A DNA stretch of 64,000 bases, from assembly GCF_013359735.1 (NCBI RefSeq), contig NZ_JABFMX010000014.1, forward strand, positions 1 through 64,000, written 5' to 3'. The notes below the pieces were generated by a model. It had not been told where the DNA came from. It did not search any database and saw nothing but the letters and a program-made list of their open reading frames with translations. The DNA comes from Arthrobacter sp. C9C5 (GTDB taxonomy: Bacteria > Actinomycetota > Actinomycetes > Actinomycetales > Micrococcaceae). Made by a program: the position numbers and the translations under genes. Numbering within the stretch: the first letter of the stretch is position 1; the number at the start of each line of letters is the position of its first letter. This document shows positions 23,209-39,700 of this stretch, in pieces.

Positions 23209-23320
23209 AGGTCATGAGCGCCAGCACCAAGCCCCGGCTTGCTGGCCGGCAACCCTCCTTGCGCGGTGGGGTGCCCCGGGTGAAGACCTGGCCCGCCGGC
23301 GTCCGCCGGCAGGCAAGCGC
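23209..23320 (+). ncRNA. SAM-IV riboswitch upstream of metY
   Basis: The leader has the SAM-IV core: ggtcatgagcgccagc, ccccggcttgctggccgg, caaccctcc, gcggtggggtgccccggg and gaagacc closing the basal stem with ggtc. Downstream, ggcaagcgc at about 23312-23320 can pair with the gcttgc loop to make the 3' pseudoknot typical of this class. SAM-IV aptamers are an actinobacterial S-adenosylmethionine sensor that represses sulfur-amino-acid genes. The metY start follows 70 bases later, so control could be by terminator or by access to the ribosome site. Confidence 0.88.
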
Positions 23321-23389
23321 GGCGCCAGCGCCGTTCCGGCCCCCTAGGAGGCCAGGGGCGGCCTGTGCCCAGTCCTAGGGAGCTCTCCG

Positions 23390-24706
23390 ATGTCCAACGC
23401 CTGGTCCTTTGAAACCCGCCAGATCCACGCCGGCCAGGAGCCGGACTCCGCCACTGGCGCGAGGTCGCTACCGATCTACCAGACGACGTCGTTCGTCTTC
23501 CCCAGTGCGGAAAGCGCCGCCAACCGCTTCGCCCTCGCCGAGCTCGCCCCCATCTACACCCGGATCGGCAACCCCACCCAGGACGCGGTGGAACAGCGGG
23601 TCGCGAGCCTCGAGGGCGGCCTTGGGGCGCTCCTGCTCAGTTCCGGCCAGGCCGCCGAAACCTTCGCGATCCTCAACATTGCCGAGGCGGGGGACCACGT
23701 CGTCGCCAGCCCCAGCCTCTACGGCGGGACCTACAACCTGCTGGCCCACACCCTGAAGAAGTTCGGCATCTCCGTGACGTTTGTGGAGGACCCGGACAAC
23801 CTTGAGCAGTGGCGCGATGCCGTGCAGCCGAACACCAAGCTGTTCTTCGGCGAGGTGGTCTCCAACCCCCGCCAGGACGTGCTGGACATCGAAGGCGTCG
23901 CGGACGTCGCCCACCGGGCCGGGGTGCCGCTGATCGTGGACAACACCCTCTCCACCCCCTACCTGATCCGCCCGATCGAGTGGGGCGCCGACATCGTGGT
24001 CCACTCGGCCACCAAGTACCTCGGCGGCCACGGTGCCGCGATCGCCGGCGTGATCGTCGACTCCGGCAACTTCGACTTCGGCAAGGACCCGGAGCGCTTC
24101 CCCGGCTTCAACACCCCGGATCCCACGTACAACGGCCTGGTCTACGCCCGGGACCTCGGGGCGGACGGGGCGTTGGGAGCGAACCTTTCCTTCATCCTCA
24201 AGGCCCGGGTCCAGCTGCTGCGCGACCTCGGTTCGGCCGTCTCGCCGTTCAACGCCTTCCTCATCGCCCAGGGGATTGAGACGCTGAGCCTGCGGGTGGA
24301 ACGGCACGTCGCCAACGCCCTGCGGGTGGCCGAATGGCTGGAAGCCAGGGACGACGTCGAATCCGTCGCCTACGCGGGGCTGCCGTCCAGCCCCTGGTAT
24401 GAGCGCGGCCGTAAGTACGGCCCGAAAGGCACCGGCGCCGTCGTCGCGTTCAACCTCGCCGGGGGAGCGGAGGCCGGCAAACGCTTCGTCGACGCTCTCG
24501 AACTGCACTCCCATGTGGCGAACATCGGTGACGTGCGCTCGCTGGTCATCCACCCGGCGTCGACCACGCACAGCCAGCTCTCGCCGGAGCAGCAGGCGGT
24601 CGCCGGCGTCAATCCCGGCCTGGTCCGGCTCTCGGTGGGCCTCGAGCACATCGACGACATCATCGCGGACCTCGACGCCGGCTTCCGGGCGGCCAAGAAC
24701 GCCTGA
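23390..24706 (+). CDS. metY: O-acetylhomoserine sulfhydrylase (MetY type)
   Basis: Makes homocysteine from O-acetylhomoserine and sulfide, or methionine with methanethiol. It is a Cys/Met-metabolism PLP enzyme of 438 residues with Schiff-base lysine K209 in VVHSATKYLGGHG, the SSGQAAETFAIL loop at about 84-95 and the C-terminal SLVIHPASTTH substrate motif. The length suits O-acetylhomoserine aminocarboxypropyltransferase, not cystathionine gamma-synthase (about 380). A SAM-IV riboswitch precedes it, and metX, which makes its substrate, follows. Confidence 0.95.
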   Translation: MSNAWSFETRQIHAGQEPDSATGARSLPIYQTTSFVFPSAESAANRFALAELAPIYTRIGNPTQDAVEQRVASLEGGLGALLLSSGQAAETFAILNIAEAGDHVVASPSLYGGTYNLLAHTLKKFGISVTFVEDPDNLEQWRDAVQPNTKLFFGEVVSNPRQDVLDIEGVADVAHRAGVPLIVDNTLSTPYLIRPIEWGADIVVHSATKYLGGHGAAIAGVIVDSGNFDFGKDPERFPGFNTPDPTYNGLVYARDLGADGALGANLSFILKARVQLLRDLGSAVSPFNAFLIAQGIETLSLRVERHVANALRVAEWLEARDDVESVAYAGLPSSPWYERGRKYGPKGTGAVVAFNLAGGAEAGKRFVDALELHSHVANIGDVRSLVIHPASTTHSQLSPEQQAVAGVNPGLVRLSVGLEHIDDIIADLDAGFRAAKNA

Positions 24707-24752
24707 GGTCACACAGCCGTCACATTCTTCGCGCTTGCGCCGCCGTGTTTCG

Positions 24753-24758
24753 TAGAAT
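24753..24758 (+). promoter_or_regulatory. -10 element of the metX promoter
   Basis: TAGAAT sits about seven bases before the second SAM-IV aptamer, indicating that metX has its own promoter in addition to any read-through from metY. Confidence 0.5.
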
Positions 24759-24764
24759 CGACGC

Positions 24765-24878
24765 AGGTCATGAGTGCCAGTGACAGCCCCGGCTTGCTGG
24801 CCGGCAACCCTCCATTTTGCGGCGGGGTGCCCCGGGTGAAGACCTGGCCTGCCGGTCAGCTGACGGCGGGCAAGCGCG
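24765..24878 (+). ncRNA. SAM-IV riboswitch upstream of metX
   Basis: Closely similar to the metY leader: aggtcatgagtgccag, ccccggcttgctggccgg, gcggcggggtgccccggg, gaagacct, then a second stem and ggcaagcgcg for the pseudoknot. The two copies differ mainly in loop sequences. The metX ATG is only 15 bases after the conserved 3' end, which favours control of translation initiation here. Confidence 0.88.
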
Positions 24879-24893
24879 AAGTTAGGTCCTCAC

Positions 24894-26075
24894 ATGACGA
24901 TTGCCGTCACCCGCACGGGTGTACCCGAAAGCAAATCCTCCACTGCCAACGCCGGAACGACCATGGCGGCGGCAGTTCCCGACGGTGCTGTTCCCGATGG
25001 GACGGTGCAGTACCTCCCAATCGGTTCCCTGACGCTTGAATCCGGTGCCACCCTGCCTGAGGTCACCCTCGCCTTCGAGACCTGGGGGACGCTGAACGCC
25101 GATGCCTCCAATGCGGTGCTGATCGAGCACGCCCTGACCGGAGACACCCACGTCACCCGCGGCGCCGGCGAGGAACCGGGCTGGTGGGAGCAACTGGCCG
25201 GCCCCGGCGCCCCGGTGGACACGGACAAGTACTTCGTGGTCTCCATCAACATCCTCGGCGGTTGCTACGGCTCCACCGGGCCCTCGACGCCGGCCCCGGA
25301 CGGCCGGCCCTGGGGCTCGCGCTTCCCGCTGGTCACCCTCCGGGACAGCACCGCAGCGGAAGCCCGGCTCGCCGACGCGCTGGGGATCAGCAGCTGGTAT
25401 GCCGTGCTCGGCGGCTCGCTCGGGGGAGCACGCGCGCTGGAGTGGGCGGTCAGCTACCCGGCGCGGGTGCAGCGCTGCGCCGTGATCTCGGTGGGCGCAC
25501 ACAGCACCGCCGAGCAGATCGCCTTCGCCCAGGCCCAGACCCTGGCAATCCGCCAGGACCCCCACTTCAACGGCGGCGACTACTACGGCGGCCCCGAACC
25601 GCACGCCGGACTGGCCCTGGCGCGCCGGATCGCCCACATCACCTACCGTTCCGCAGCCGAGCTGGACGGGCGCTTCGGACGGAACGCCCAGGCGGCCGAG
25701 GCCCCGCTGGAGGCCGGGTCGCTGGCCGGCCGCGGGCGCTACCAGGTGGAGAGCTACCTGGACCACCAGGGCAACAAGCTGGTGCGACGCTTCGACGCCA
25801 ACAGCTACATCGCCATCACCGAGGCGCTCATGAGCCACGACGTCAGCCGCGGCCGGGGAAGCCTGGCGCAGGCCGTCTCCCTCGCCACCGCGGAGTTCTT
25901 CGTGGCGGCCGTGGACTCGGACCGGCTCTACTTTCCGGCCCAGTCCCGAGAGCTCGCCGACGCCCTGCCGGGGGAGGTCCCGGTGCACGTCATCGAGGCC
26001 CCGATCGGCCACGACGGCTTCCTGACCGAAATCGGCCAGCTCAGCGAACAGCTCCGGGGCAACTTCTTCGCCTAG
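24894..26075 (+). CDS. metX: Homoserine O-acetyltransferase
   Basis: Transfers an acetyl group from acetyl-CoA to homoserine, the first committed step to methionine. It is an alpha/beta hydrolase fold enzyme of 393 residues: nucleophile S175 in GGSLGGARALEW, the family stretch NILGGCYGSTGPSTP (about 119-133) and the catalytic His in IGHDGFL near the C-terminus. Residues 1-38 are a poorly conserved extension, so a later start is possible. It forms the substrate of the neighbouring metY product. Confidence 0.95.
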   Translation: MTIAVTRTGVPESKSSTANAGTTMAAAVPDGAVPDGTVQYLPIGSLTLESGATLPEVTLAFETWGTLNADASNAVLIEHALTGDTHVTRGAGEEPGWWEQLAGPGAPVDTDKYFVVSINILGGCYGSTGPSTPAPDGRPWGSRFPLVTLRDSTAAEARLADALGISSWYAVLGGSLGGARALEWAVSYPARVQRCAVISVGAHSTAEQIAFAQAQTLAIRQDPHFNGGDYYGGPEPHAGLALARRIAHITYRSAAELDGRFGRNAQAAEAPLEAGSLAGRGRYQVESYLDHQGNKLVRRFDANSYIAITEALMSHDVSRGRGSLAQAVSLATAEFFVAAVDSDRLYFPAQSRELADALPGEVPVHVIEAPIGHDGFLTEIGQLSEQLRGNFFA

Positions 26076-26246
26076 ACGGCACCTCCGAGTGTGCATTTTT
26101 GCAGACGCACTCTGCGCGATTAGTCGTTGAGCCTGCCGCGATCGAAGTCCATACTCGTGGAGAATGACGCCGTGTGTTCCAACTCACATACACGTAGTCA
26201 ACCTAATGGTCCACAGGGTGTCGAAGACGACACCGAAGGAGTTCGC

Positions 26247-27629
26247 ATGAGCACGGAAAACGTCGCCGCAAGGCGCACAGAGGAGCCCGACGTCAAGACG
26301 TCCGGCCTGAAGAAGGTAGTAACGGCCTCCATGGCCGGCACGGTAGTGGAGTGGTACGAGTTCTTCCTCTACGCCTCCGCCGCCACCCTGGTGTTTGGCA
26401 AGATGTTCTTCCCCAACTCCGGAACGGAACTGGACGGCATCCTCGCCGCGTTCCTGACCTACGCGGTTGGCTTCGTGGCCCGCCCGATCGGCGGCATCGT
26501 CTTTGGCCACTTCGGTGACAAGTTCGGCCGCAAGAAGCTGCTGCAGCTCAGCATCATCCTGGTCGGCGTATCGACCTTCCTGATGGGCTGCCTCCCGGGC
26601 TTCGCGCAGATCGGCTACTGGGCCCCGGCCCTGCTGGTCTTCCTGCGCTTCGCCCAGGGCTTCGCCGTCGGCGGTGAATGGGGCGGCGCCGTCCTCCTCG
26701 TCGCCGAGCACAGCCCCAGCAAGTCCCGCGGCTTCTGGGCCAGCTGGCCGCAGTCCGCCGTCCCGCTGGGCAACCTGCTCGCCACTGCCGTGCTGTTCAT
26801 CCTGTCCTCCGTGCTGTCCTCCGCGGACTTCCTTGGCTGGGGCTGGCGGGTCGCGTTCTGGCTCTCCGCCGTGATCGTCGTCGTCGGCTACTACATCCGC
26901 ACCAAGGTCAGCGACGCCCCGATCTTCCTCGAGGCACAAAAGGAAGTTGTCACGGAGAACAAGGGCTACGGCGTCGCCGAGGTCTTCCGCCGCTACCCCC
27001 GCGGCGTCTTCACCGCCATGGGCCTGCGCTTCGCGGAGAACATCCTCTATTACCTCGTGGTCACCTTCTCGATCACCTACCTCAAGACCGTTGTCCACGC
27101 GGACACCGCCCGGATCCTGCTGCTCCTGCTCGTGGCGCACTTCATCCACTTCTCCGTGGTGCCGGTGGTCGGCAGGCTCTCGGACCGCTTCGGCCGCAAG
27201 CCCGTCTACATGGCCGGTGCCGTCCTGGGTGCCACCTGGGGCTTCTTTGCCTTCCCGATGATGGACACCGGTAACGACTTCATGATCCTCGCCGCCGTCA
27301 TCATCGGCCTGCTCTTCCACGCCCTGATGTACGCCGGCCAGCCGGCCATCATGGCCGAGATGTTCCCGACCCGGATGCGCTACTCCGGCGTATCGCTCGG
27401 CTACCAGGTGACCTCGATCGTGGCCGGTTCGCTCGCCCCGATCATCGCCGTCGCGCTGCTGAGCCAGTACAAGTCCTCCGTCCCGGTGGCCATCTACCTG
27501 CTGCTCGCCTGCGCCGTCACCGCCGTCGCGGTCTTCTTCCTGAAGGAAACCCGCGGCATCTCGCTGCACGACGTCGACGCCGCCGACGCCCAGGGCACTG
27601 CGGACCTGCTCGCCGCCGTTAAGCGGTAA
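26247..27629 (+). CDS. MFS transporter of the metabolite:H+ symporter (MHS) family
   Basis: A 460-residue membrane protein with 12 segments. The MHS signature is clear: ASMAGTVVEWYEFFLYASAA at about 23-42, GHFGDKFGRKK (loop 2-3) at about 91-101, and RFAQGFAVGGEWGGA at about 134-148. The substrate class is small organic acids or betaine/proline-like compounds, and it cannot be narrowed. The start at 26247 is set by gaagga six bases upstream. It stands alone after metX, separated by a 170-bp spacer with a weak hairpin at about 26086-26116. Confidence 0.9.
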   Translation: MSTENVAARRTEEPDVKTSGLKKVVTASMAGTVVEWYEFFLYASAATLVFGKMFFPNSGTELDGILAAFLTYAVGFVARPIGGIVFGHFGDKFGRKKLLQLSIILVGVSTFLMGCLPGFAQIGYWAPALLVFLRFAQGFAVGGEWGGAVLLVAEHSPSKSRGFWASWPQSAVPLGNLLATAVLFILSSVLSSADFLGWGWRVAFWLSAVIVVVGYYIRTKVSDAPIFLEAQKEVVTENKGYGVAEVFRRYPRGVFTAMGLRFAENILYYLVVTFSITYLKTVVHADTARILLLLLVAHFIHFSVVPVVGRLSDRFGRKPVYMAGAVLGATWGFFAFPMMDTGNDFMILAAVIIGLLFHALMYAGQPAIMAEMFPTRMRYSGVSLGYQVTSIVAGSLAPIIAVALLSQYKSSVPVAIYLLLACAVTAVAVFFLKETRGISLHDVDAADAQGTADLLAAVKR

Positions 27630-27658
27630 CCGGCACGCAGCTGCACGGGCTCAAAACA

Positions 27659-27697
27659 AGCAGCCCCCGTTCCCGCTCCGCGGGGACGGGGGCTGCT
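27659..27697 (+). terminator. Intrinsic terminator after the MHS transporter
   Basis: An 18-bp stem (27659-27676 with 27680-27697, one G-T or mismatch) with a very GC-rich body. It marks the left border of the accessory region. Confidence 0.8.
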
Positions 27698-27747
27698 GTC
27701 GTTGGGATCCCGAGTGGAAGGAAGGCCGCCACCCAGCCCGCGGGGTG

Positions 27748-28434
27748 CTACGCCCGTGTAGCGAACTGCACCTGGATGAGCATGAGCTCGGCGCGAGGAA
27801 GCACGGCGGTGACGACGCCGCCGCCCGCTAGTTCCGTGCCAATGCCGTATACAAACGGATCCGTATCGACCTCGGCACCGGGTACTTCGGCCCCATTCAC
27901 TATGACACCGACCTGATCGTTGACCATCCGGTCCATCACCGCCGCTGCGGGTTGGTCCCAGGAACCGTCGCTCAGTCCGAGCTCCTGCTGGTACCGGTTC
28001 CTGAGGATGTGGTTGACGTGTTCGACCAGCACGCTGCGGAGCGAGGTGCCGGGGGATGGGTTGCGGTGCCAGGTAGTTCGCACGGCCTCCCACAGGTGCG
28101 GGTATCGCATTCGCTCCACCTGCTCGACTAGCCATGCGGGTCGGGGCCATGGTGGAACGACGTCTATCGCAGCGCGAGCCTGATCGGTGAGGTCGGCGAG
28201 ATTTATCGGGTCCGAGCGGTCAGCTGGGTTTCGCCAGAGTGTGTAGCTGACACTCGCGGACATTTCACTGTATCCACGATCGTCCTCGCCGGATACCAGA
28301 CTTACGGCATCTGTGTCCTCCAGTGAGGGCTGGGACACGAGCCCCATCACCAGGATGGGCATGAGTTTCAGTCGCTCAACCTGCTCGGCCCGGGGATCGG
28401 GCGCGTCCTCAGGGAGAATTCCAGTCATCCTCAT
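27748..28434 (-). CDS. Hypothetical protein
   Basis: I do not recognise this protein of 228 residues. No signal peptide or membrane segment is visible. It has an amphipathic N-terminal half, a Trp/Pro-rich centre (VPPWPRPAWLVEQVERMRYP) and a beta-rich end (DTDPFVYGIGTELAGGG) that could be a C-terminal sheet domain. ATG 28434 is preferred because CATAAT lies six bases upstream; another in-frame ATG is at 28428 and the longest reading begins at 28470. The base composition is lower in GC than the surrounding core genes. Confidence 0.65.
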   Translation of the reverse strand: MRMTGILPEDAPDPRAEQVERLKLMPILVMGLVSQPSLEDTDAVSLVSGEDDRGYSEMSASVSYTLWRNPADRSDPINLADLTDQARAAIDVVPPWPRPAWLVEQVERMRYPHLWEAVRTTWHRNPSPGTSLRSVLVEHVNHILRNRYQQELGLSDGSWDQPAAAVMDRMVNDQVGVIVNGAEVPGAEVDTDPFVYGIGTELAGGGVVTAVLPRAELMLIQVQFATRA

Positions 28435-28440
28435 GCCACG

Positions 28441-28446
28441 ATTATG
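28441..28446 (-). promoter_or_regulatory. -10 element of a probable leaderless promoter
   Basis: CATAAT on the minus strand six bases before the ATG of the hypothetical gene, with no ribosome binding site. Confidence 0.4.
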
Positions 28447-28524
28447 AACCTGCACGTGATCGGGACGCACGGAGCAACCTCAGTAAGGAACAGTGGTCCC
28501 AGTTTCGGTTAGGAGACAGAGTCC

Positions 28525-28947
28525 GTGAAAAGTTTCTATGTCGCGTCGAGCTTCAGGAACATCGCCAACGTCCGGTACGTCGCGCAAACGTTGGAAAGCA
28601 TGGGCTACGTCAACATGTACGACTGGACCCATGAACGCCTCGGTGGCGACGCGGCCGCGATTACTATCGGTGCCCTGCGCTCCATCGGGGAGCGTGAGAG
28701 AGATGCAGTGACAGGGGCCGACGTCGTCGTGGTCTTACTTCCAGGCGGCAAGAGTACCCACGTTGAGCTTGGCATCGCGATTGCCCGCGGCAGGCGGACA
28801 ATCCTGCATTTGCCGGACGACGTCATCAACAATCTTGAGGCCACCAGCACGTTCTACCATCTGCCTGAACTGGAGAAGTGTCATGGAAACCTTGATGACC
28901 TTCTGGCCATGATCGTCGGCCAAGAAGAGACCGCTGCCGCCGTCTGA
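28525..28947 (+). CDS. Nucleoside 2-deoxyribosyltransferase-like protein
   Basis: A small (140 aa) Rossmann-like protein. MKSFYVASSFRNIANVRYVAQTLESMGY is the typical first strand and helix of the nucleoside deoxyribosyltransferase/DUF4406 superfamily. GADVVVVLLPGGKSTHVELGIAIARGR (about 64-90) corresponds to the conserved GxSTHxELG substrate-site motif. Such proteins exchange or hydrolyse nucleobases of nucleosides or nucleotides, but many small members have no proven activity. GTG 28525 follows aggaga. It is divergent from the unknown gene on the left. Confidence 0.8.
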   Translation: MKSFYVASSFRNIANVRYVAQTLESMGYVNMYDWTHERLGGDAAAITIGALRSIGERERDAVTGADVVVVLLPGGKSTHVELGIAIARGRRTILHLPDDVINNLEATSTFYHLPELEKCHGNLDDLLAMIVGQEETAAAV

Positions 28948-28976
28948 GATTGCGGAGCCTTGAAGCGAAGGCTGGG

Positions 28977-29867
28977 CTATTGCCCGGGACGGTTGGGAAA
29001 GTCGGCGTCCCACGTCAGATCTGCTCCCGCATTCAGTGGAAGCGCTTCGACGGCGGGGTCCCGCACTAGTGCCGATACGAGTTCATGACTGCCGGCGACC
29101 ACCGTGGAGTCGAAGTCTATTTCGGTCACCATGACCCAAGTTCTGTCCGCCGGCCATAGGATGTTCGGTGACTGCGGGAATTGTGGGGAATGATGCCAAG
29201 GCACGTGATGCACCCACCCGGTGTGACGGTAAAACTTTGGCGCGGCATCGAACAGGTAATAGGTGCGGCCCGGCAGGGTCAGTGTTTCGCCTTTGATCAC
29301 CTCCGCCGGCAGCAGGCCGCGATCAAGATCCGTGCCCAGCGCGGCGGCAGCGGAAGTATTCTCCACGGGCGTCGAGTCGTCCGAAAAAGTGAGCTGGGCG
29401 TAGCCGATGGAGCTTGTAAGTCCGCCCCATCCTTCCCAAATGGCGGTCACACCCTTGTTTGGCGTGGAGGTATGTTCACAGAGGCGGGCAGCCAGTGCTG
29501 CCAGTATGTTCGGTGCGAGGTTGCCGGTCAGGGGTTCAGAATAACGCCAGCCCTCACTGTCGAAGATTTCCTGCCGGTTCGGTGGCTGCCCAATAAGTCG
29601 GTGGAATTGGGCCAATGGGTGCATCTTGGTTCCGAAAGCACCCGCCACGTCAGACCAGCGGACCTGTTGCTCGTCGAGGGGGAAGACGCCTGTTCGGGAA
29701 TGCCCATGCCAGGAACCGGTGTCCTTGGGGCGGTCCCGCACTACCGGATGGAAGATTCTGGCGTAGGCGGGGAAGCCCCGTGGCACCACAGCGTGCATGT
29801 CGTGCCACACGGGATCCATCAGAGGCTTCAGCCATTCACCGGGCGCAGCAGTGGGCAACGATTCCAT
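28977..29867 (-). CDS. Hypothetical protein of an uncharacterised actinobacterial family
   Basis: A 296-residue soluble protein with no signal peptide. The N-terminal part contains DPVWHDMHAVVPRGFPAYAR and the C-terminal part a Trp/His-rich segment (GWVHHVPWHHSPQFPQSPN), followed by strands WVMVTEIDFDSTVV. I recognise it as a recurring uncharacterised type in actinobacteria but know no function. The His clusters could bind metal, which is speculation. It is convergent with the deoxyribosyltransferase-like gene. Confidence 0.75.
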   Translation of the reverse strand: MESLPTAAPGEWLKPLMDPVWHDMHAVVPRGFPAYARIFHPVVRDRPKDTGSWHGHSRTGVFPLDEQQVRWSDVAGAFGTKMHPLAQFHRLIGQPPNRQEIFDSEGWRYSEPLTGNLAPNILAALAARLCEHTSTPNKGVTAIWEGWGGLTSSIGYAQLTFSDDSTPVENTSAAAALGTDLDRGLLPAEVIKGETLTLPGRTYYLFDAAPKFYRHTGWVHHVPWHHSPQFPQSPNILWPADRTWVMVTEIDFDSTVVAGSHELVSALVRDPAVEALPLNAGADLTWDADFPNRPGQ

Positions 29868-29973
29868 GCGGCCAGCCTAATAGTCGGCGCGGGGCAACCC
29901 CCGGGATCGGTTGCGATGCGCAGCCGGATTGAAGCTGGCGCGACCCCGGGATGCCATAGGACCGCCGTCGTGC

Positions 29974-29979
29974 AAGAAT
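29974..29979 (+). promoter_or_regulatory. -10-like element before the GyrA-like ORF
   Basis: AAGAAT lies exactly six bases upstream of the ATG, with no Shine-Dalgarno sequence. It is weak as a hexamer because the first T is missing. Confidence 0.3.
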
Positions 29980-29985
29980 CGCCGC

Positions 29986-30258
29986 ATGGATGAGGATGAG
30001 CAGCGGATCAGGGATCACTTGATGGTCGTCGATGCCCTTGTACAGGCGATGGATCGCCGACACGAGGTGTTACAGGTCATTGACGATTCAGAGGACGTTG
30101 ACGAAGCAATCCGTCGGGTCGGCCAGCTGTTGGGTGTGGACGAATTCGGCAGCCGGGTAATCCTCGACCTGCAGTTCAGAAGGCTCACACGAGACCAGCG
30201 TCAGGCCCTTGCTGCCGAGGCAGAAAAACTTAGATCAAAGCTGCCTAATGGCCGCTGA
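29986..30258 (+). CDS. Orphan GyrA-like coiled-coil/tower domain protein
   Basis: A 90-residue protein that looks like the helical segment of DNA gyrase subunit A following its DNA-cleavage core. RIRDHLMVVDALVQAMD aligns by eye with the gyrase pattern HILxGLVxALDxxDEVI, and VDEFGSRVILDLQFRRLTRDQRQAL with the gyrase IDEIQAQAILDMQLRRLxxLERQ. The catalytic tyrosine domain, winged helix and C-terminal pinwheel are all absent. It could be a free-standing small protein that binds the gyrase dimer or a remnant. The reading frame is intact and preceded by a -10-like hexamer. Confidence 0.75.
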   Translation: MDEDEQRIRDHLMVVDALVQAMDRRHEVLQVIDDSEDVDEAIRRVGQLLGVDEFGSRVILDLQFRRLTRDQRQALAAEAEKLRSKLPNGR

Positions 30259-30323
30259 GGATTTTGTGTTCCCTGTCGATTCCACGCCGGCAATGTTGGC
30301 AAGACGGAGGACGCGAGCAGTGT

Positions 30324-30329
30324 TAGGGT
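30324..30329 (+). promoter_or_regulatory. -10 element of a probable leaderless promoter
   Basis: TAGGGT six bases upstream of the ATG of the SGNH hydrolase gene, with no ribosome site. Confidence 0.45.
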
Positions 30330-30335
30330 CCTGAA

Positions 30336-30932
30336 ATGACTTTGCGACTTGGGGTGTACGGAGACAGCATTTCCACGGGGTGGCGGGGGATTTCCCACGT
30401 CGACAAGCGGTGGACATCCATCGTGAGCCGGAACCTTGGTTTGGAGGAGCACAATTTCGCGGTGAATGGCCTGGGATTTCTTGCCAAGCGCGACACCGAC
30501 GCGTTTGAAAAGCATCCTCTGGATATGGTGATCGACGCGGATCCGCAAATCGCGCTGATTGCTCTCGGTGCCAATGACTACCCGCATCTTCCCGAGCACG
30601 AAGACAAGCTCCGCCGGACCATGATTCAGGACATGTCCCGGCTGCGCGATGCACTCCCGGACTCCCAAGTGCTCGTTGTCGAACCCTATTGGCCCTTCCG
30701 GGAGGAGCCGCCTCGAATCCGCCGAGTCTTCGATCTCCATGCAGAGTGCGCCGAGGAAACAGGCCTGCCGTTCCTGTTGGGCCAGTACGGCGTCTTCGCC
30801 GACGATCCCACCCCGTTCTTCTACCCGGAACCGGACCAGATCCACCCGAACGATCTCGGCCACGCCAGGCTAGGGGAGGTCATGACGGAAGCACTCGAAC
30901 CATACGTGGCCAGGGTCCGGGCCGCTGGCTGA
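30336..30932 (+). CDS. SGNH/GDSL-type hydrolase
   Basis: A 198-residue cytosolic esterase-like protein with no signal peptide. Block I GDSIS gives nucleophile S11, block III LGANDY gives N80, and block V DQIHPN gives D167 and H170, so the catalytic set is complete. The substrate is unknown; the fold includes acetyl esterases, lipases and peptidoglycan O-acetyl esterases. It begins 77 bases after the GyrA-like ORF and ends 12 bases before the clamp-like ORF. Confidence 0.87.
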   Translation: MTLRLGVYGDSISTGWRGISHVDKRWTSIVSRNLGLEEHNFAVNGLGFLAKRDTDAFEKHPLDMVIDADPQIALIALGANDYPHLPEHEDKLRRTMIQDMSRLRDALPDSQVLVVEPYWPFREEPPRIRRVFDLHAECAEETGLPFLLGQYGVFADDPTPFFYPEPDQIHPNDLGHARLGEVMTEALEPYVARVRAAG

Positions 30933-30944
30933 CTCACCTTTGGG

Positions 30945-31352
30945 GTGCCGTTGCCTGACCAAACTTTCATACCGGAGCTCGTCGATGTCGACTTCCCTTC
31001 CTATCGCAGCTGGCTCGGCCTCGGCAACCGCGAAGTCCCCGTCGATGCCTCTGCGTTGACTGCCGCACTCAACGCAGGTACCACCGAGACCTTCACCCGA
31101 GACAACGACGGCGTCGCTTACGACGTCAGTCGACTCAGCATCACTTCACGTGGAGTGGAGGTCGGCTCATCCGACGACCCGGACGCGCTGGTCATCGGGG
31201 TGAACCGCGCGTTTCTCTTGGACGCACTCGGCACCGGCGACCAGCTCACCCTCGGTCTGGACGATCCGATCGCGCCGCTGGCCATCCGTAACCCGGACCG
31301 AGACGGCACACTGTCGATCCTCATGCCGGTCCGCCTCGACCAGCCGGTCTGA
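30945..31352 (+). CDS. Orphan DnaN (sliding clamp) C-terminal domain protein
   Basis: A 135-residue protein resembling the last third of the DNA polymerase III beta clamp. DVDFPSYRSWLG corresponds to the clamp linker EFPxYRxLLP before domain III. ALVIGVNRAFLLDALG corresponds to xxIAFNPxYLxDGL, and the end SILMPVRL to the near-universal LLMPVRL. Domains I and II are missing, so no complete clamp can form. Actinobacteria also carry MerR-type regulators fused to clamp-like domains, of which this could be a truncated relative. GTG 30945 has no good ribosome site; an in-frame stop at 30930-30932 bounds it upstream. Confidence 0.75.
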   Translation: MPLPDQTFIPELVDVDFPSYRSWLGLGNREVPVDASALTAALNAGTTETFTRDNDGVAYDVSRLSITSRGVEVGSSDDPDALVIGVNRAFLLDALGTGDQLTLGLDDPIAPLAIRNPDRDGTLSILMPVRLDQPV

Positions 31353-31419
31353 GTCAAACGTCTCTGCTTGCCCGCCATGGGACGCCTCTGCCCACCCGGG
31401 TTCGACGGACAGCGCAGGC

Positions 31420-32523
31420 TTACAGGAGCACAACCCATTCGGCATAAAAGATTCCAAGTGCGACGGCGACGAAGAGACCCGCAATGATCCAGAAGCGGGC
31501 CACCACGGTGACCTGTTCCCAGCCCTTCAATTCAAAGTGGTGATGCAGCGGCGTCATGAGGAAGACGCGCCTGCCGCCCGAGAGTTTGAAGAAGCCCACC
31601 TGGATGATGACGGAGAGGGTGATCATGACGAACAGGCCGGCCATGATGACCAGGAGCAGCTCGGTGCGCGAGAGGATCGCGAAGCCCGCGATTGCGCCCC
31701 CGAGGGCGAGTGATCCGGTGTCACCCATGATGATCTTCGCCGGGGTGGTGTTCCACCAGAGGAATCCCACGAGGGAGCCGCACAGCGCAGCCGCGATCAG
31801 GGCCAGGTCGAGCGGATCCCGCACCTGGTAGCAAATATTGACCGGGACGCTGGGATCAGCGCACCGTTGGTTGAACTGCCAGATACCCATCAGCATGTAA
31901 GCGCCGAAGACAAGGATCGACGCTCCCGCGGCCAGACCATCCAGTCCGTCGGTGATGTTTACCCCGTTGGATGTCGCCGTGAGGATCAGGATGGACCAGA
32001 GGATGAACAGGACCGCGCCGACCAGCGGCCCGGCAAAGGCCAAGTCCAAGGACGTGTCCCGAACGAACGAGATTGCGGTGGAGGCTGGAGTGCGACCGCT
32101 CCCATCCGGAAAATTGAGCGCGAGTACGCCGAACGTCACCCCGACGGCTGTCTGGCCGACGATCTTCGCCGGCGCCGTGAGCCCGAGGCTGCGCTGCCTG
32201 GAGACCTTGATGCAGTCATCGAAAAATCCCACGAGGCCCATGCCGACGGTGACCATGAGGAGCAGCAGGCCTGAGGCTGTTGGGCCAGACGACGGACCAA
32301 GCATCGCCATGATCCAGTGCGTGGCGAAGTAAGCGATCACCACCGAACCAATGATCCACGCCCCGCCCATGGTGGGAGTGCCACGTTTGGTGTGGTGGGT
32401 GGTGGGGCCGTCGTCGCGGATGAACTGGCCGTACCTCTTCCTCACCAGATAGCGGGCGAGGACAGGCGTGCCGCTCAACGACAGAACCAAGGCCAAAGCA
32501 GCGGCGATCAGCAGCGCAATCAT
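31420..32523 (-). CDS. mraY: MraY (phospho-N-acetylmuramoyl-pentapeptide transferase), stand-alone copy
   Basis: Transfers phospho-MurNAc-pentapeptide from UDP to undecaprenyl phosphate, forming lipid I at the inner membrane. The 367 residues have about ten membrane helices and all catalytic motifs: DDCIK (D102, D103, K106), [10 protein letters not shown] (D192, D195), MGDTG (D268) and the [13 protein letters not shown] His cluster (H327-H329). None of its usual dcw neighbours (murF, murD, ftsW) is present, so this is probably a second copy. The atypical [20 protein letters not shown] loop lies between helices. The gene appears fully functional. Confidence 0.93.
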
Positions 32524-32867
32524 CGGGAGGCGCCCCTTCCATTTCCCGGACTAGGTCCGTCGCATGACTCGGGTGGATCGCCGGGCACCCCCGCCGACTC
32601 GTTCGACGCCGATCCTAGCCGATCGCTTCTTCACTACCAGCGTCAACGACTCTTCACTCGAGCCAAGGGAATCCCGCAGGCATGGCAGACGCGCGGCTGG
32701 ACACGGCCTCAAAGTCGTGGAGAGCCGGGGCGAGCGGCAGGTCTTGGGGTTCAACTGCCCCCGTCGGACGGAGCGGGCACGTGCCAGGTGAATGCATCCA
32801 CGCGACAAACGCTGGCAGCGCCGCGTTCGGACCGGCGTGGAAGCGACCGGATCCGAGGGGCGACTGC

Positions 32868-32873
32868 TCTAAT
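32868..32873 (+). promoter_or_regulatory. -10 element of a probable leaderless promoter
   Basis: TCTAAT exactly six bases upstream of the ATG of the S66 peptidase gene, with no Shine-Dalgarno sequence. Confidence 0.45.
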
Positions 32874-32879
32874 GATCAG

Positions 32880-33932
32880 ATGACGCCACAGAACCTCACT
32901 GCGCCAGCGAAGGTAAGCCCGGGCGATCGCGTTGCGATACTTTCCCCGGCGTTTGCCGCACCAGCTGTCTCAGCAGCCGTTCATGAACAGGCGATGAAAC
33001 GCTTGACGGAGATGACCGGTTTGATCCCAGTCGAGTACCCGACTACCCGGCAACTGGGTGCAAGCGCCCAGGCGCGGGCCGCTGACATCACTGCGGCGTT
33101 CGCCGATCCAAGGGTCCGTGCAGTCCTTGCGACCATCGGCGGCGACGACCAGATCACCGTCATCAAGCACCTCGACGCCGCCGTCATCGCCGACAACCCG
33201 AAGCCGTTCCTCGGCTACAGCGACAATACGAACCTGCACAACTTCTTGTGGGGCCTCGGGATTTCGAGCTTCTACGGCGGTTCCACGCAGGTGCACCTGG
33301 GGGCAGGTCCACGCGTGGATGACGTGCACCTGGCCTCGCTTCGCGCCGCACTGATCGACGGCGGAACCATGGCGTTAGCCGATCCTGGCGAGTCGGAAGA
33401 CTTCGGCATCCCTTGGACGGACCCCCGCGCTCTGACCCAGTTCGGTGACCGTGAAGCGACGGAGCCGTGGGTCTGGTCCGGTCCGAAGAAGGTTGTGGAA
33501 GGGCGATCGTGGGGCGGTTGCCTGGAGGTCATTGACCAGATTGCGATGGCTGACCGGATGCCGGCTGTGGCCGATCTCGAAGGCGCGATCCTGCTCTTCG
33601 AAACCAGCGAGGAGCTGCCAGCCGCAGACGAAGTGCGGAGATGGGTGCGGGCGCTGGGCGAGAGAGGAATCCTCGAAGCCGCCGCTGGCGTGCTGGTCGC
33701 CCGTCCGCCCGTCAGCTGCCTCGGGGAACCAGTTCCGGCGGCGGGAGAACGAGCCCGGCTCAGGGCAGAACAGCGGGAGGCGATCATCGAACAGGTCGGC
33801 GTGTACAACCCGAACGCCGTCGTCTGTGTCGGAGTTCCCTTCGGCCACACCCGACCCCAATGGATTCTTCCCCACGGCGGACTGATCCGGCTCGACGGAA
33901 TCGCCCAAACAGTTACCGCTGACTACCGCTGA
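32880..33932 (+). CDS. S66 family peptidase (MccF-like / LD-carboxypeptidase)
   Basis: A cytosolic serine peptidase of 350 residues. The S66 catalytic triad is complete: S114 in FLGYSDNT, E216 in WGGCLEVID and H323 in VPFGHTRP. Two activities occur in the family: removal of D-Ala from muropeptides (LD-carboxypeptidase) and cleavage of the peptide-nucleotide antibiotic microcin C7 (MccF), which gives self-immunity. The GYSDNT nucleophile motif and the length are closer to MccF-like members by eye. It is divergent from mraY with a 356-bp spacer. Confidence 0.9.
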   Translation: MTPQNLTAPAKVSPGDRVAILSPAFAAPAVSAAVHEQAMKRLTEMTGLIPVEYPTTRQLGASAQARAADITAAFADPRVRAVLATIGGDDQITVIKHLDAAVIADNPKPFLGYSDNTNLHNFLWGLGISSFYGGSTQVHLGAGPRVDDVHLASLRAALIDGGTMALADPGESEDFGIPWTDPRALTQFGDREATEPWVWSGPKKVVEGRSWGGCLEVIDQIAMADRMPAVADLEGAILLFETSEELPAADEVRRWVRALGERGILEAAAGVLVARPPVSCLGEPVPAAGERARLRAEQREAIIEQVGVYNPNAVVCVGVPFGHTRPQWILPHGGLIRLDGIAQTVTADYR

Positions 33933-33970
33933 GGCGCCCGGCCGTAGGCCGCCGGCGCAGCATGCCCTGC

Positions 33971-34879
33971 TCAGCCGGCGAGCACGTCCTGGCGTTCGGC
34001 GATCTCGGCCCGGACGGCCGCCACCACGGCCTGCACCGGCGCCGAACGCAGTGACTCGGCCCTGGCCACGGCCCAGATCGGCAGCTGCCGCTGGAAGTCA
34101 TCCGGCAGGACCGGTACGAACCCGGGCTTGCCGACGACGAGGAAGTTGGGCAGCAGCCCGATCCCGGCGGCGCGATGGACGGCCTCCAGCTGGGCGAAGA
34201 TGCTGGTGGCCTGGAAACTGGAGCGCGGCATCGGCAGCTGGGTGGAGCGGTGGCCGAGCTCGGCGACCTGCAGCGCCGACTCGACGTAGGAGACGAAGCC
34301 GTGCTGCCGGACGTCGTCGAGCGTCTCGGGCAGCCCGTGCTCGCGCGCGTACTCGGGGCTGGCGTACAGCCGCAGGAAGTAGTTGGACAGGAAGATGGTC
34401 TGCGCGTTGCTGACCTCCATGTTGCCGACCACCACCTCGAGGTCCACCCCGGAGCGGTTTTGGCTGACCTTGCGGGTGGCGCTGAGCATTTCCACGTTCA
34501 GCAAAGGATGTTCCTGCTGCAGCCGGACCAGGGCCGGGGCGACGAATTCCGCGCCGAAGCCGTCCGGGGTGCTGATCCGGACCAGGCCGGAGAGCACGTC
34601 CTCGGTCCGGGCGATCCGGCCGGACAGCGCGCCCAGGGTGGCTTCGATGGCCTCGGCGGCCGCCACGGCCTGGGACCCAAGCTCGGTGAGTTCCCAGCCG
34701 TGCGGGCTGCGCTCCAGCGTCCGGCCGCCCAGCTGCTTGTCCAGGGCGAGGATCCGGCGCGAGATGGTGGTGTGCGTGGTGCCCAGGGTCTCCGCGACCG
34801 CGTTGAACCGGCCCAGCCGGGCCACGGTCAGCAGGATCAGCAGGTCGTCCGGACTGGGAAGCCGCTTCAAGTCCACCAT
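33971..34879 (-). CDS. LysR family regulator divergent from mmsBA
   Basis: N-terminal winged helix (SPDDLLILLTVARLGRFNAVAETLGTTHTTISRRI, about 7-42) and effector domain. ATG 34879 starts the conserved MVDLKRLPSPDDLL; a GTG directly after it is better spaced from gaggag and is the alternative. It is divergent from the valine-catabolic mmsB-mmsA pair, so it probably regulates them in response to 3-hydroxyisobutyrate or a related acid, by position only. A perfect 9-bp palindrome lies directly upstream. Confidence 0.9.
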   Translation of the reverse strand: MVDLKRLPSPDDLLILLTVARLGRFNAVAETLGTTHTTISRRILALDKQLGGRTLERSPHGWELTELGSQAVAAAEAIEATLGALSGRIARTEDVLSGLVRISTPDGFGAEFVAPALVRLQQEHPLLNVEMLSATRKVSQNRSGVDLEVVVGNMEVSNAQTIFLSNYFLRLYASPEYAREHGLPETLDDVRQHGFVSYVESALQVAELGHRSTQLPMPRSSFQATSIFAQLEAVHRAAGIGLLPNFLVVGKPGFVPVLPDDFQRQLPIWAVARAESLRSAPVQAVVAAVRAEIAERQDVLAG

Positions 34880-34897
34880 GACTCCTCGGGATGATGA

Positions 34898-34917
34898 TAT
34901 GTGCATCTATGCACATA
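34898..34917. promoter_or_regulatory. Perfect palindrome, candidate LysR operator
   Basis: TATGTGCAT-CT-ATGCACATA, two perfect 9-bp arms with a 2-bp centre, 19 bases upstream of the LysR start and 107 bases upstream of mmsB. It contains a T-N10/11-A core, as LysR proteins prefer. Confidence 0.55.
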
Positions 34918-35023
34918 CCATCTGTAGTTTTTTACCTTGATTGCACTGTAACAGGGTGTGATGGTTGACACTGAACGTCCCGCGGTTGCGCCGGACGCAA
35001 TGCAAAGCAAAGGAGCTTATGCC

Positions 35024-35926
35024 ATGGCAGTTGTCGCCTGGATCGGACTGGGAAACATGGGCGGGTTCATGTCGGTGAACCTGGCCAAGGCCGGAAACGA
35101 GGTCCGCGGATTCGACCTCAACCCGGAGGCCCTCGCGGCCGCCGAGGCCGGGGGAGTCAAGCCCGCCGGCAGCATCGCCGAGGCCGTGGAGGGCGCCGAC
35201 GTCGTCTTCACGATGCTCCCCAAGGGCGAGCACGCCCGGGCCGTCTACCTGGGCGAGGACGGCGTACTGGCCCACGCCGACACCAGGACCCTGCTGGTGG
35301 ACTCCTCCACGATCGACATCGCCTCGGCCCAGGCCCTGCACGACGCCGCCGCGGAGGCAGGCTTCCGCTTCGTCGACGCGCCCGTCTCCGGCGGGATGAG
35401 CGGCGCCAAGGCCGCCACGCTCACCTTCATGATCGGCGGCGAGGCCGGCGCCGTCGCCGACGCCACCGAGTACATCCGCCCGATGGCCGCCAACATCATC
35501 CCCACCGGCGGCGCCACCACCGGCCAGGCCGCCAAGATTTGCAACAACCTGATGCTCTTCATCAACCTCGCCTCCACGGCGGAGGGCGCGGTGCTCGCGG
35601 ACCGCCTGGGACTGGACAAGCAGGTCTTCTGGGACATCGCCTCCGTCTCCTCCGGCGACAGCTGGGCGCTGCGCACCTGGTACCCGGTGGCCGGCGTCGT
35701 GCCCACCGCCGCCTCGAACAACGACTTCGCGCCGACGTTCACCGCCGAGCTCGCCAACAAGGACATCGGCCTGGCCATCAGCGCCGCCCGCGACACCGGG
35801 ACGCCGCTGGAGATCGGCGAGCACGTCCAGCAGCTTTTCCAGCGGCTCATCGACGGCGGCCAGTCCGGCACGGACTGCTCCGCCATCGTCAAGCTGGTCG
35901 ACGGCTCGTTCGAGTCCGCCAAGTAG
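35024..35926 (+). CDS. mmsB: 3-hydroxyisobutyrate dehydrogenase
   Basis: Oxidises 3-hydroxyisobutyrate to methylmalonate semialdehyde in valine breakdown. It is a beta-hydroxyacid dehydrogenase of 300 residues with NAD-binding GLGNMGGFM at 6-14, the substrate motif DAPVSGGMSGA (about 119-129) and catalytic lysine in GQAAKICNN (about K170). ATG 35024 follows aaaggag at 35009-35015. It is followed by mmsA after 31 bases. Confidence 0.95.
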   Translation: MAVVAWIGLGNMGGFMSVNLAKAGNEVRGFDLNPEALAAAEAGGVKPAGSIAEAVEGADVVFTMLPKGEHARAVYLGEDGVLAHADTRTLLVDSSTIDIASAQALHDAAAEAGFRFVDAPVSGGMSGAKAATLTFMIGGEAGAVADATEYIRPMAANIIPTGGATTGQAAKICNNLMLFINLASTAEGAVLADRLGLDKQVFWDIASVSSGDSWALRTWYPVAGVVPTAASNNDFAPTFTAELANKDIGLAISAARDTGTPLEIGEHVQQLFQRLIDGGQSGTDCSAIVKLVDGSFESAK

Positions 35927-35957
35927 CCCCCAAACCTTTTAGAAAGAGATCCTCCCC

Positions 35958-37442
35958 ATGGAACGCATTCCGCACTTCATCAACGGCGCCCTGGTGTCCG
36001 ACGCCGAGCGCTACGGCCCCGTCTTCAACCCCGCCACCGGCGAACAGGAAAAGGAAGTGGCGCTCGCCTCCGCCGCCCGGGTCGAGGAAGCCATCGCCGC
36101 CGCCCGGGCCGCCCTGCCCGGCTGGCGCGCCACGAGCCTGGCCAAGCGCACCACCATCTTCTTCAAGGTCCGCGAGCTGCTCATGCAGCGCCGTCCCGAA
36201 CTGGCCGCCCTGCTGACCAGCGAACACGGCAAGGTCCTCTCCGACGCGGAGGGCGAGATCACGCGCGGCCTGGAGAACATCGAGTTCGCCACCGGCCTGT
36301 CCCACGCGCTCAAGGGCGAACGCTCCGAGCAGGTGTCCGGCGGCGTCGACGTCCACTCCGTCCGGCAGCCGGTCGGCGTCGTCGCCTGCATTACGCCGTT
36401 CAACTTCCCGGCCATGGTGCCGCTCTGGATGATCGGCAGCGCCCTGGCCTGCGGCAACACCGTGCTGCTCAAGCCGAGCGAAAAGGACCCGTCCTCCGCT
36501 ACCTTCATCGCCCAGGTCTTCGCCGAGGCCGGCCTGCCCGCGGGCGTCCTCAACGTCGTGCACGGGGACAAGGAAGCCGTCGACGTGCTGCTCGAGCACC
36601 CGGACGTCAAGGCCGTCAGCTTTGTGGGCTCGACGCCGATCGCCCAGTCCATCTACAAGCGCGCCGCGGACCACGGCAAGCGCGTCCAGGCACTCGGCGG
36701 GGCCAAGAACCACATGGTGGTGCTTCCGGATGCGGACCTGGACATGGCCGCCGACGCCGCCGTCTCCGCCGCCTACGGCTCCGCGGGGGAGCGCTGCATG
36801 GCTGTCAGCGTCCTAGTCGCGGTCGGGAACATCGCGGATGAACTCGTGGACGCGATCAAGACCCGGATGGCAACGCTCAAGATCGGCCCCGGCACAGATC
36901 CGGCCTCCCAGATGGGTCCGCTGATCACCGCCGAGCACCGCGACAAGGTGGCCTCCTACGTGGCGGGCGCCGCGGACGAGGGCGCCTCCGTGGTGGTGGA
37001 CGGCCGGGAGCAGGAGTTCGACTCCAACGGCTTCTTCATCGGCGTGAGCCTGATCGACCACGTCAAGCCCGGCATGAAGGTCTACGACGACGAGATCTTC
37101 GGCCCCGTCCTCTCGGTGGTCCGCGTCGAGAGCTACGCCGACGCCGTCAAGCTCGTCAATGACAATGAGTTCGGCAACGGCGTGGCCATCTTCACCCGCG
37201 ACGGCGGCGCCGCCCGGCAGTTTGAGTTCGACGTCGAGGCCGGCATGGTGGGCGTCAACGTGCCGATCCCGGTGCCGGTGGGGACCTTCTCCTTCGGTGG
37301 CTGGAAGAACTCGCTCTTCGGCGACACCCACATGTACGGCCCGGAGAGCATCCGCTTCTACACCCGCGGGAAGGTGGTCACGACGCGCTGGCCGGATCCG
37401 TCCACCTCGGTGATCGACCTCGGTTTCCCGCAGGTCGACTAG
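35958..37442 (+). CDS. mmsA: Methylmalonate-semialdehyde dehydrogenase (acylating)
   Basis: Converts methylmalonate semialdehyde with CoA and NAD+ to propionyl-CoA and CO2, the step after MmsB. The 494-residue aldehyde dehydrogenase has catalytic cysteine C280 in YGSAGERCMAVSV, the family ITPFNFPAMVPLW segment (about 145-157) and the C-terminal PVPVGTFSFGGWKNS stretch typical of MmsA. It lacks the usual general-base glutamate motif, as acylating members do. Same operon as mmsB. Confidence 0.95.
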   Translation: MERIPHFINGALVSDAERYGPVFNPATGEQEKEVALASAARVEEAIAAARAALPGWRATSLAKRTTIFFKVRELLMQRRPELAALLTSEHGKVLSDAEGEITRGLENIEFATGLSHALKGERSEQVSGGVDVHSVRQPVGVVACITPFNFPAMVPLWMIGSALACGNTVLLKPSEKDPSSATFIAQVFAEAGLPAGVLNVVHGDKEAVDVLLEHPDVKAVSFVGSTPIAQSIYKRAADHGKRVQALGGAKNHMVVLPDADLDMAADAAVSAAYGSAGERCMAVSVLVAVGNIADELVDAIKTRMATLKIGPGTDPASQMGPLITAEHRDKVASYVAGAADEGASVVVDGREQEFDSNGFFIGVSLIDHVKPGMKVYDDEIFGPVLSVVRVESYADAVKLVNDNEFGNGVAIFTRDGGAARQFEFDVEAGMVGVNVPIPVPVGTFSFGGWKNSLFGDTHMYGPESIRFYTRGKVVTTRWPDPSTSVIDLGFPQVD

Positions 37443-37451
37443 CGTCTAGGG

Positions 37452-37946
37452 TCAGCCCTTCATGATCTCCGCGCGCTGGGCCATGTAGTCCTCCATGGCG
37501 AGCTCGCCGTTGCTGTACTTCTGGTCCAGCTCGGCGAGCTTGCGCGCGCGGTAGCCCTGCGGCCCTGACGGCACCGGCGGCACCGGCGGCACCTCCGGGG
37601 CGGCCGGCGTCGGGACCGGCGCCTGGGGCTGCCACTGCTGCGGTGGGGCGGGCCGCGGCGGGTTGTTCAGGTACTCCGGGCTGTCCTCGTACGGGACGGG
37701 GTACTGCTGGTTCGCGGGCGGCTGGTTGGCCGGGGGCTGCGGGGCGCCCAGCTGGCCGAATCCGCCGTAGTAGTCCCGCTGGGTGAAGCCGTCCCGCGGC
37801 TGGTTGCTCTGCTGGCCGGGGAACTGGCCCGGGAACCCGCCGGGCATGCCCTGGTCCTGTCCGCGTCCGCGGACTGATTTGCGGTACATGCGAATGGCCG
37901 CCGGGACCAGGAAGGACAAGATGATGATCCAAAGGAAAATGCTCAC
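37452..37946 (-). CDS. SHOCT-domain membrane-anchored protein
   Basis: A 164-residue protein with a single N-terminal membrane helix (residues 3-18, FLWIIILSFLVPAAIR), a long Pro/Gln/Gly-rich linker (about 30-125) and a C-terminal SHOCT-like motif (ARKLAELDQKYSNGELAMEDYMAQRAEIMKG, about 133-163). Function unknown; SHOCT modules are short oligomerisation motifs common in actinobacteria. It is convergent with mmsA across nine bases. Confidence 0.82.
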   Translation of the reverse strand: MSIFLWIIILSFLVPAAIRMYRKSVRGRGQDQGMPGGFPGQFPGQQSNQPRDGFTQRDYYGGFGQLGAPQPPANQPPANQQYPVPYEDSPEYLNNPPRPAPPQQWQPQAPVPTPAAPEVPPVPPVPSGPQGYRARKLAELDQKYSNGELAMEDYMAQRAEIMKG

Positions 37947-38036
37947 GGTACCGCGCCTCTCAAAAGATGTCTTTCCAGCTTAACGCGCACGCTGCGCCCA
38001 GGGTGCCGGGCCGCCCCGGCCCCCGGTATCGGGAGT

Positions 38037-38933: not shown

Positions 38934-39003
38934 ATCCTGCCCCCTTCCCGCAAAGCGGCGCCAGCGTAGCTTGTTACTCCTAGGTAACTGTAAGAATGGA
39001 GCC

Positions 39004-39666: not shown

Positions 39667-39700
39667 GCCCCGACGGCGGGTTACGCGCTGCTAGGCGCTG

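Follow-up and report, generated by a model that had tools for sequence, protein, structure and literature searches.

According to PMC7762955, the regulator TipA is made from two start codons as a long regulatory protein and a short drug-binding form, and it is autoregulated; the sliding clamp is mentioned in that article only in the reference list. MerR-regulated promoters are described as having 19- or 20-bp spacers (PMC7722741). The sliding clamp DnaN (TIGR00663; PF00712, PF02767 and PF02768) possesses a pocket, of which PMC11139829 lists 18 positions, that is described there as also binding known clamp partners. Two drugs, griselimycin and mycoplanecin, fill both of the pocket's subsites (PMC10817943). 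Griselimycin is made by Streptomyces (PMC11139829), and mypR, a homologue of griR, is a second DnaN gene that sits in a biosynthetic cluster (PMC10817943), GriR and MypR being the self-resistance DnaN copies of the griselimycin and mycoplanecin producers. A literature search that covered few subscription journals found no paper on fusions between MerR proteins and the clamp.

Such fusions exist in databases, for instance as Streptomyces atratus plasmid genes annotated 'MerR family transcriptional regulator'. Here we describe a fragment of the same family in Arthrobacter sp. C9C5 that corresponds to their C-terminal third and differs from them in having no MerR helix-turn-helix (HTH), no clamp domain II and no operator. 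It resembles DnaN in the motifs and fold of domain III, and differs from it in lacking domains I and II and in its origin, which is very probably a MerR fusion and not dnaN. The intact fusions, in turn, are like GriR and MypR in bringing a second clamp pocket into an actinobacterial genome, and unlike them in lacking domain I and carrying a MerR HTH.

Results

A DnaN domain III homologue that is not an independent domain

The window, that is, the whole stretch of 64,000 nucleotides analysed, contains on its forward strand an ORF of 135 aa (30945..31352) that starts with GTG and whose first nine or so residues derive from a junction described below. The initial annotation had recognised in it the clamp motifs FPxYR, VNRAFLLDAL and LMPVRL, all of which are present, and had remarked on the absence of clamp domains I and II; we found neither domain by inspecting the sequence or with Pfam, and a GDSL hydrolase gene lies upstream instead. 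Similarity to DnaN domain III is weak at the profile level yet consistent: Pfam PF02768 matches with E=5.6e-4 and 20.2 bits, under its 27-bit cut-off, PHROG 947 with E=7.4e-5, and the best of the solved clamps with E=1.7e-6 (phmmer), spanning residues 6-131, while the equivalog cut-off of TIGR00663 is not reached (19.8 bits versus 137.65). The AlphaFold2 model has a mean pLDDT of 77.4, with residues 1-16 and 133-135 below 50. In a Foldseek search with this model 49 of the 50 top rows bear sliding clamp or Pol III beta subunit titles, the sole exception being 8xla, a mismatch repair complex; only 2 of the 50 have E<=0.001 (best 3.9e-4, TMq ~0.5). VIA-align superposes residues 28-131 of the model on 7rzm with a Z of 9.5 and an rmsd of 2.3 over 90 residues. 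The domain III profile search that the annotation had proposed thus identifies a DnaN domain III homologue, though with PF02768 below cut-off. This homologue is real but is not an independent domain, because close relatives encode it as the end of an intact fusion gene.

The fragment as the probable 3' end of a MerR–clamp gene

The same sequence forms the last third of intact genes made of MerR, clamp II and clamp III parts in two genomes of the genus, G044 and G018 (346 and 347 aa). Domain III of the fragment is 88.4% identical to that of G044 and 89.1% to that of G018; four genes that belong to different families within the order (L119-L122) share 59-76% identity with it, and the included Streptomyces, Embleya and Geodermatophilus genes 41-44%. 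In a tree the fragment groups with the two intact genes with a support of 100, the support within the group being 59. DNA homology to the 3' end of the MerR–clamp genes runs over 30973..31385 (+) at 86-87% identity, the match to G018 reaching only 31364. By comparison with G044, this stretch holds the linker between domains II and III, domain III, the stop and 33 bp downstream. It begins at 30973, at the clamp II/III linker and 40 bp past the stop of the unrelated GDSL gene. When the whole genome was searched with the G044 protein, residues 215-346 matched at the fragment, and the other matches were four partial ones of 26-33% identity, of MerR or DnaN type; no copy of the MerR HTH and clamp domain II was found at comparable identity.

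The ORF is very probably a 5'-truncated remnant of a gene for a MerR–sliding-clamp fusion regulator. Of the two readings initially offered, a truncated relative of actinobacterial MerR–clamp fusions is the one borne out by the identity to G044 and G018. The other, a stand-alone domain III competing for clamp partners, finds no support: close relatives carry the intact parent gene, and the G044 and G018 genes reveal the decayed end of a full gene that the annotation itself had named as contrary evidence. Nor does a free domain III recur as an intact frame: of 396 genomes surveyed across the order, 19 contain a match, and the one in the window alone lies in an open frame of less than 200 aa.

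The distant DnaN homology would also be expected if domain III of the chromosomal dnaN had been captured, one full dnaN being present elsewhere in the genome, but the chance of this is negligible. The fragment is 88-89% identical to MerR–clamp genes; the ORF, searched against its own genome, missed the host dnaN at E up to 10, though the gene is there; and position 247 is W in the fragment and in four of six Micrococcales-type fusions and L in the host DnaN. We rejected a direct copy of dnaN on these grounds. It is also very improbable that unrelated sequences were joined at 30926-30972 by the assembly, which is a draft of 47 contigs. The GDSL–domain III junction is indeed seen in one genome only, but it lies inside a 125-kb contig, and the assembly contains no other copy of the parent gene of comparable identity.

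A tile in a mosaic block

The left junction, from the end of GDSL homology to the start of MerR–clamp homology, measures 47 bp (30926..30972); missing at this point are the MerR part, clamp domain II and the promoter with its operator. The right junction, between MerR–clamp homology and homology to an accessory mraY, measures 34 bp (31386..31419). Directly upstream, and in the same reading frame as the ORF, is an intact GDSL hydrolase gene (30336..30932, +; PF13472, E=2e-19), whose relative in G199 (87% DNA identity) is followed by an unrelated ORF. The GDSL stop is in frame with the fragment (30930-30947), so that read-through would yield a GDSL–domain III fusion. On the other side, and convergent with the fragment, lies the mraY-like gene (31420..32523, -), which is additional to the genome's best PF00953 match and has close relatives (86-89% DNA identity) only in G024, G044 and G166 among 206 genomes of the genus. 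An LD-carboxypeptidase gene (S66; 32682-33932) lies near it, and the two are possibly a pair that protects against cell-wall antibiotics.

Comparison with relatives delimits a variable block of ~6.2 kb (27703..33948) that holds the fragment, a hotspot with an MFS transporter gene on one side and a LysR gene on the other. Its flanks (23300-27702 and 33948-39679) are conserved. Gaps between the flanks, computed from alignment coordinates, are ~15 bp (G104), 26 bp (G199) and 33 bp (G166) in near-empty relatives and 0.9 kb (G044), 1.8 kb (G024) and 3.0 kb (G018) in differently filled ones. The GDSL gene matches G199, the clamp fragment G044 and G018, and the mraY-like gene G024, G044 and G166, while the stretches 27754-28448 and 29951-30261 adjoin each other in G018. 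Because its pieces match different places in different genomes, the block is a mosaic, in which the fragment is one tile with two junctions.

Two other ORFs of the block, of 296 aa (28977-29867, -) and 240 aa (27748-28470, -), have no Pfam match at E<=1; relatives of the stretches that hold them occur in G104 and G018. A 115-aa ORF (29911-30258, +), whose stretch sits beside the relative of 27748-28470 in G018, matches DNA gyrase/topoisomerase IV subunit A below threshold (PF00521, E=6.7e-6; 25.7 bits versus a cut-off of 31), and a 140-aa ORF (28525-28947, +) matches nucleoside 2-deoxyribosyltransferase, also below threshold (PF05014, E=1.7e-4). No structured RNA of Rfam matched in 27500-34200. 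A role as a defence system was considered and rejected, there being no PADLOC match at E<=0.01 among the eight proteins scanned.

Age of the break

Pairwise dN/dS is 0.145 between the fragment and G044, 0.152 between the fragment and G018, and 0.105 between the two intact genes. With substitutions polarised by outgroup counts and the first six codons set aside, the branch of the fragment carries 15 synonymous changes and 6 non-synonymous ones, compared to 23 and 5 for the two intact genes together (Fisher p=0.49). The neutral expectation is 2.83 non-synonymous changes per synonymous one, from which the branch of the fragment deviates (P=1.8e-5). When those six codons are counted too, the ratio is 16:11 for the fragment versus 23:5 for the intact genes (p=0.08). 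There is no stop or frameshift past the junction. If the intact and neutral ratios are taken as the two extremes, constraint would have been absent for ~7% of the fragment's branch, an estimate made from small counts. These data disfavour an old neutral relic. The mostly synonymous changes past the junction imply that the break is recent or that some constraint is left: a recent relic fits the pattern, and a residual function may persist.

Such a function can be imagined as a free domain III, made from the GDSL transcript, that serves as a decoy to clamp partners or to the host clamp. The frame is open, its substitutions are constrained, it shares strand and frame with the GDSL gene, with its GTG 12 nt past the GDSL stop, and its domain III is predicted to fold like clamps. 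However, all seven pocket positions of domain II are missing, we saw no Shine-Dalgarno sequence ahead of the GTG when inspecting the sequence, and a search for sigma-70-type promoters found none in 30200-31450. Moreover, no other open frame of less than 200 aa was found among the 19 matching genomes of 396, and degraded copies of the family occur elsewhere. We consider a still-working fragment improbable, and rather see in it a recent gene relic that would have no regulatory role left. Any protein that is produced, for example from a GDSL transcript that extends into the fragment, would amount to a domain III with an incomplete pocket. The initial annotation had held that domain III carries most of the partner-binding pocket, which is right by count, since the fragment holds 11 of the 18 positions (in the linker and domain III), 7 of them identical to the host DnaN, but subsite I is only partly present. 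Having these 11 positions and no MerR part, operator or internal start, the window copy is incapable of the function that we propose below for its parent.

Architecture and distribution of the intact family

The parents consist of a MerR HTH, clamp domain II and clamp domain III; the model shows a long helix lying between them. In the G044 and G018 proteins, Pfam recognises PF13411 (MerR_1) and PF02767 above cut-off and PF02768 below it. PF13411 is present in all three fusion proteins scanned (E=2.9e-12, 3.6e-12 and 2.1e-12), and the TipAS domain PF07739 was not found in these three at E<=1. The model of the L071 fusion has a pLDDT of 84.2 and a pTM of 0.62, and its best Foldseek rows are clamps (E 7e-16).

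Within the genus, the ORF found a match in 7 of 121 genomes, strong only in the window's own, G044 and G018, and a survey of 206 genomes for the fusion gave matches in four at E<=1e-12, three of them with the clamp part. A domain III profile matched 19 of 396 genomes of the order, of which 18 were inspected for motifs; an HTH was recognised in many frames and not in others, and, since the motif script read some frames on the wrong strand (L127 and L131; also L067), no count of fusions is drawn from this. A scan of genome contigs confirmed no relative with the ORF as query and yielded 52 loci with profile A4. Viral contigs gave no match, phage records one weak partial match to a primase/helicase, and plasmid records six, in Streptomyces and Embleya. 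We accepted 45 of the 52 profile loci as full coding sequences. The others are L075, L107 and L114, which look intact but were rejected by a stricter pattern; L101, L116 and L117, dropped as broken; and L115, a clamp-type frame of a Thermotogae MAG, dropped as having no HTH motif.

The fragment is not the only broken copy of the family. Compared with the intact L025, L026, on a Streptomyces plasmid, has lost in frame a segment that extends from the HTH into clamp domain II; L117 fuses the first MerR residues to the domain III region and has changes of frame, as has L116, and the HTH of L101 is interrupted by a stop. These Streptomyces copies suggest repeated loss in the family. Some broken copies come from draft genomes, where single-base breaks may be sequencing errors, deletions being less likely so.

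A putative operator found only at the gene's own promoter

The motif TTGACC[CT]T[CG][AG] lies within 120 nt upstream of 43 of the 45 full coding sequences, nearly always at a constant distance. In the two others, L067 and L111, the exact motif is absent and variants occur upstream. Two controls were used, the density of matches over all loci and counts of reversed patterns. Across both strands, 841,144 bases, the motif has 51 matches in all, those 43 among them. As read from the sequence rows, a 19-bp spacer separates it from a CAGAGT-like hexamer and is filled by a dyad of the type CTCGA...TCGAG, often imperfect; this length agrees with the 19- or 20-bp spacing of the -35 and -10 elements at MerR-regulated promoters.

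At the scale of genomes, allowing one mismatch at most, we found one site per genome in all six of the order's genomes that carry an intact fusion, and none in G024, G166, G199 or the window's genome (G000); the window itself has no operator-like site at up to three mismatches. With a pattern fitted to Streptomyces, there is one site in each of 11 Streptomyces genomes. By their coordinates all 11 directly precede the genome's own fusion gene, and the upstream sequences show the six sites in the order ahead of theirs. In 17 of 17 genomes, therefore, the operator-like site was found only at the gene's own promoter; the patterns used were stringent, being derived from these promoters and allowing no more than one mismatch, and weaker sites would escape them. 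The reversed control pattern had one match each in G629 and G723.

A predicted internal start ahead of the clamp part

An internal ATG with a Shine-Dalgarno-like 4-mer lies just ahead of clamp II in 48 of 52 genes (the 45 full coding sequences and 7 of 13 further loci), compared to a background of 50 of 1299 overlapping windows. Left out of this count were L122, which does not have the search motif, and L031 and L033-L036, missed by the pattern. When these were inspected together with L028-L030, which are the same genes as L111, L114 and L113 and so already counted, only L122 had an ATG with such a 4-mer (1/9). Distant members (L111, L113, L114, L031 and L033-L036) do not have this internal start, and in L067 it is GTG. 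Most members of the clade nearest the window's copy carry the putative internal start before the clamp part, from which a short product is predicted.

Retention of the clamp pocket

We compared 33 of the fusions found with a reference set of 28 actinobacterial DnaN sequences, left from 30 loci by a length and motif filter. At the 16 pocket positions that are at least 50% conserved in DnaN, the fusions keep the DnaN residue at 0.79 on average, versus 0.28 at 143 non-pocket positions of equal conservation (Mann-Whitney p=5e-7) and 0.36 at non-pocket positions within four residues of the pocket (p=7e-4). In three further alignments no circular shift of the pocket mask reached 0.79 (0 of 239, 239 and 240). 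When DnaN conservation of at least 90% is asked for, only four pocket positions are left (1.0 versus 0.53 kept, p=0.03), and retention is lower in the Micrococcales type (0.67). As judged from these alignments, the intact fusions have retained the pocket while losing other conserved clamp positions. A role in the packing of domain II against domain III could instead explain why the pocket residues are kept.

Discussion

Because they combine a self-directed operator-like site, a putative internal start and a retained pocket, the intact parents can be read as autoregulated closed loops of the TipA kind, with the clamp pocket as the proposed sensor. Like regulators of the TipA/SkgA/AlbA type, they have a MerR HTH and an operator at their own promoter, and they may also make a short product consisting only of the ligand-binding part; unlike TipA, whose effector part is TipAS, they use two clamp domains for this purpose. 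TipA also activates several genes including tipA itself (PMC7762955), whereas for the parents only their own promoter was found. In such a loop, a ligand entering the clamp pocket would switch on the MerR part, which would act at the sole known operator, the gene's own promoter. This would raise the level of the full-length regulator. In the clade nearest the window's, most members would make more of the short clamp II-III protein as well, and the latter would capture the ligand. Cyclic peptides directed at the clamp, such as griselimycin and mycoplanecin, are candidates for this ligand, as are peptides with the clamp-binding motif. The architecture, the operator-like site with its position and the retention of the pocket are observed; activation by a pocket ligand, the short product, sequestration and the choice of a drug over a partner peptide as ligand are all steps that we infer.

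We tentatively propose, as a possible rather than a probable reading, that the parent gene is a one-gene alarm and sponge against clamp-directed antibiotics, which controls only itself, whose sensor copies the drug's own target pocket and whose short pocket-only product would absorb the drug; the window would then hold a dying copy of it, a partial mimic of the target. The clamp part of the parent might instead sense replication partners, through peptides with the clamp-binding motif, during replication stress. Known partners bind the same pocket (PMC11139829), and the pocket is retained in the fusions; but the single operator site found, at the gene's own promoter, and the rare and scattered occurrence of the family (4/206 genomes of the genus) would agree better with an accessory, resistance-type trait than with a core stress response, so that we think partner sensing rather unlikely.

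The fragment itself is an ordinary relic, which it would be wrong to label as a new, free-standing domain of the clamp. It points, though, to a more interesting object than itself, the intact family: a scattered group of actinobacterial regulators in which the partner and drug pocket of the sliding clamp has been placed under a self-directed MerR switch. If this pocket binds griselimycin-like peptides, the family would represent resistance to clamp-targeting antibiotics by target mimicry, exerted through a self-inducing regulator, and it would offer a ready-made biosensor for new antibiotics of this class.
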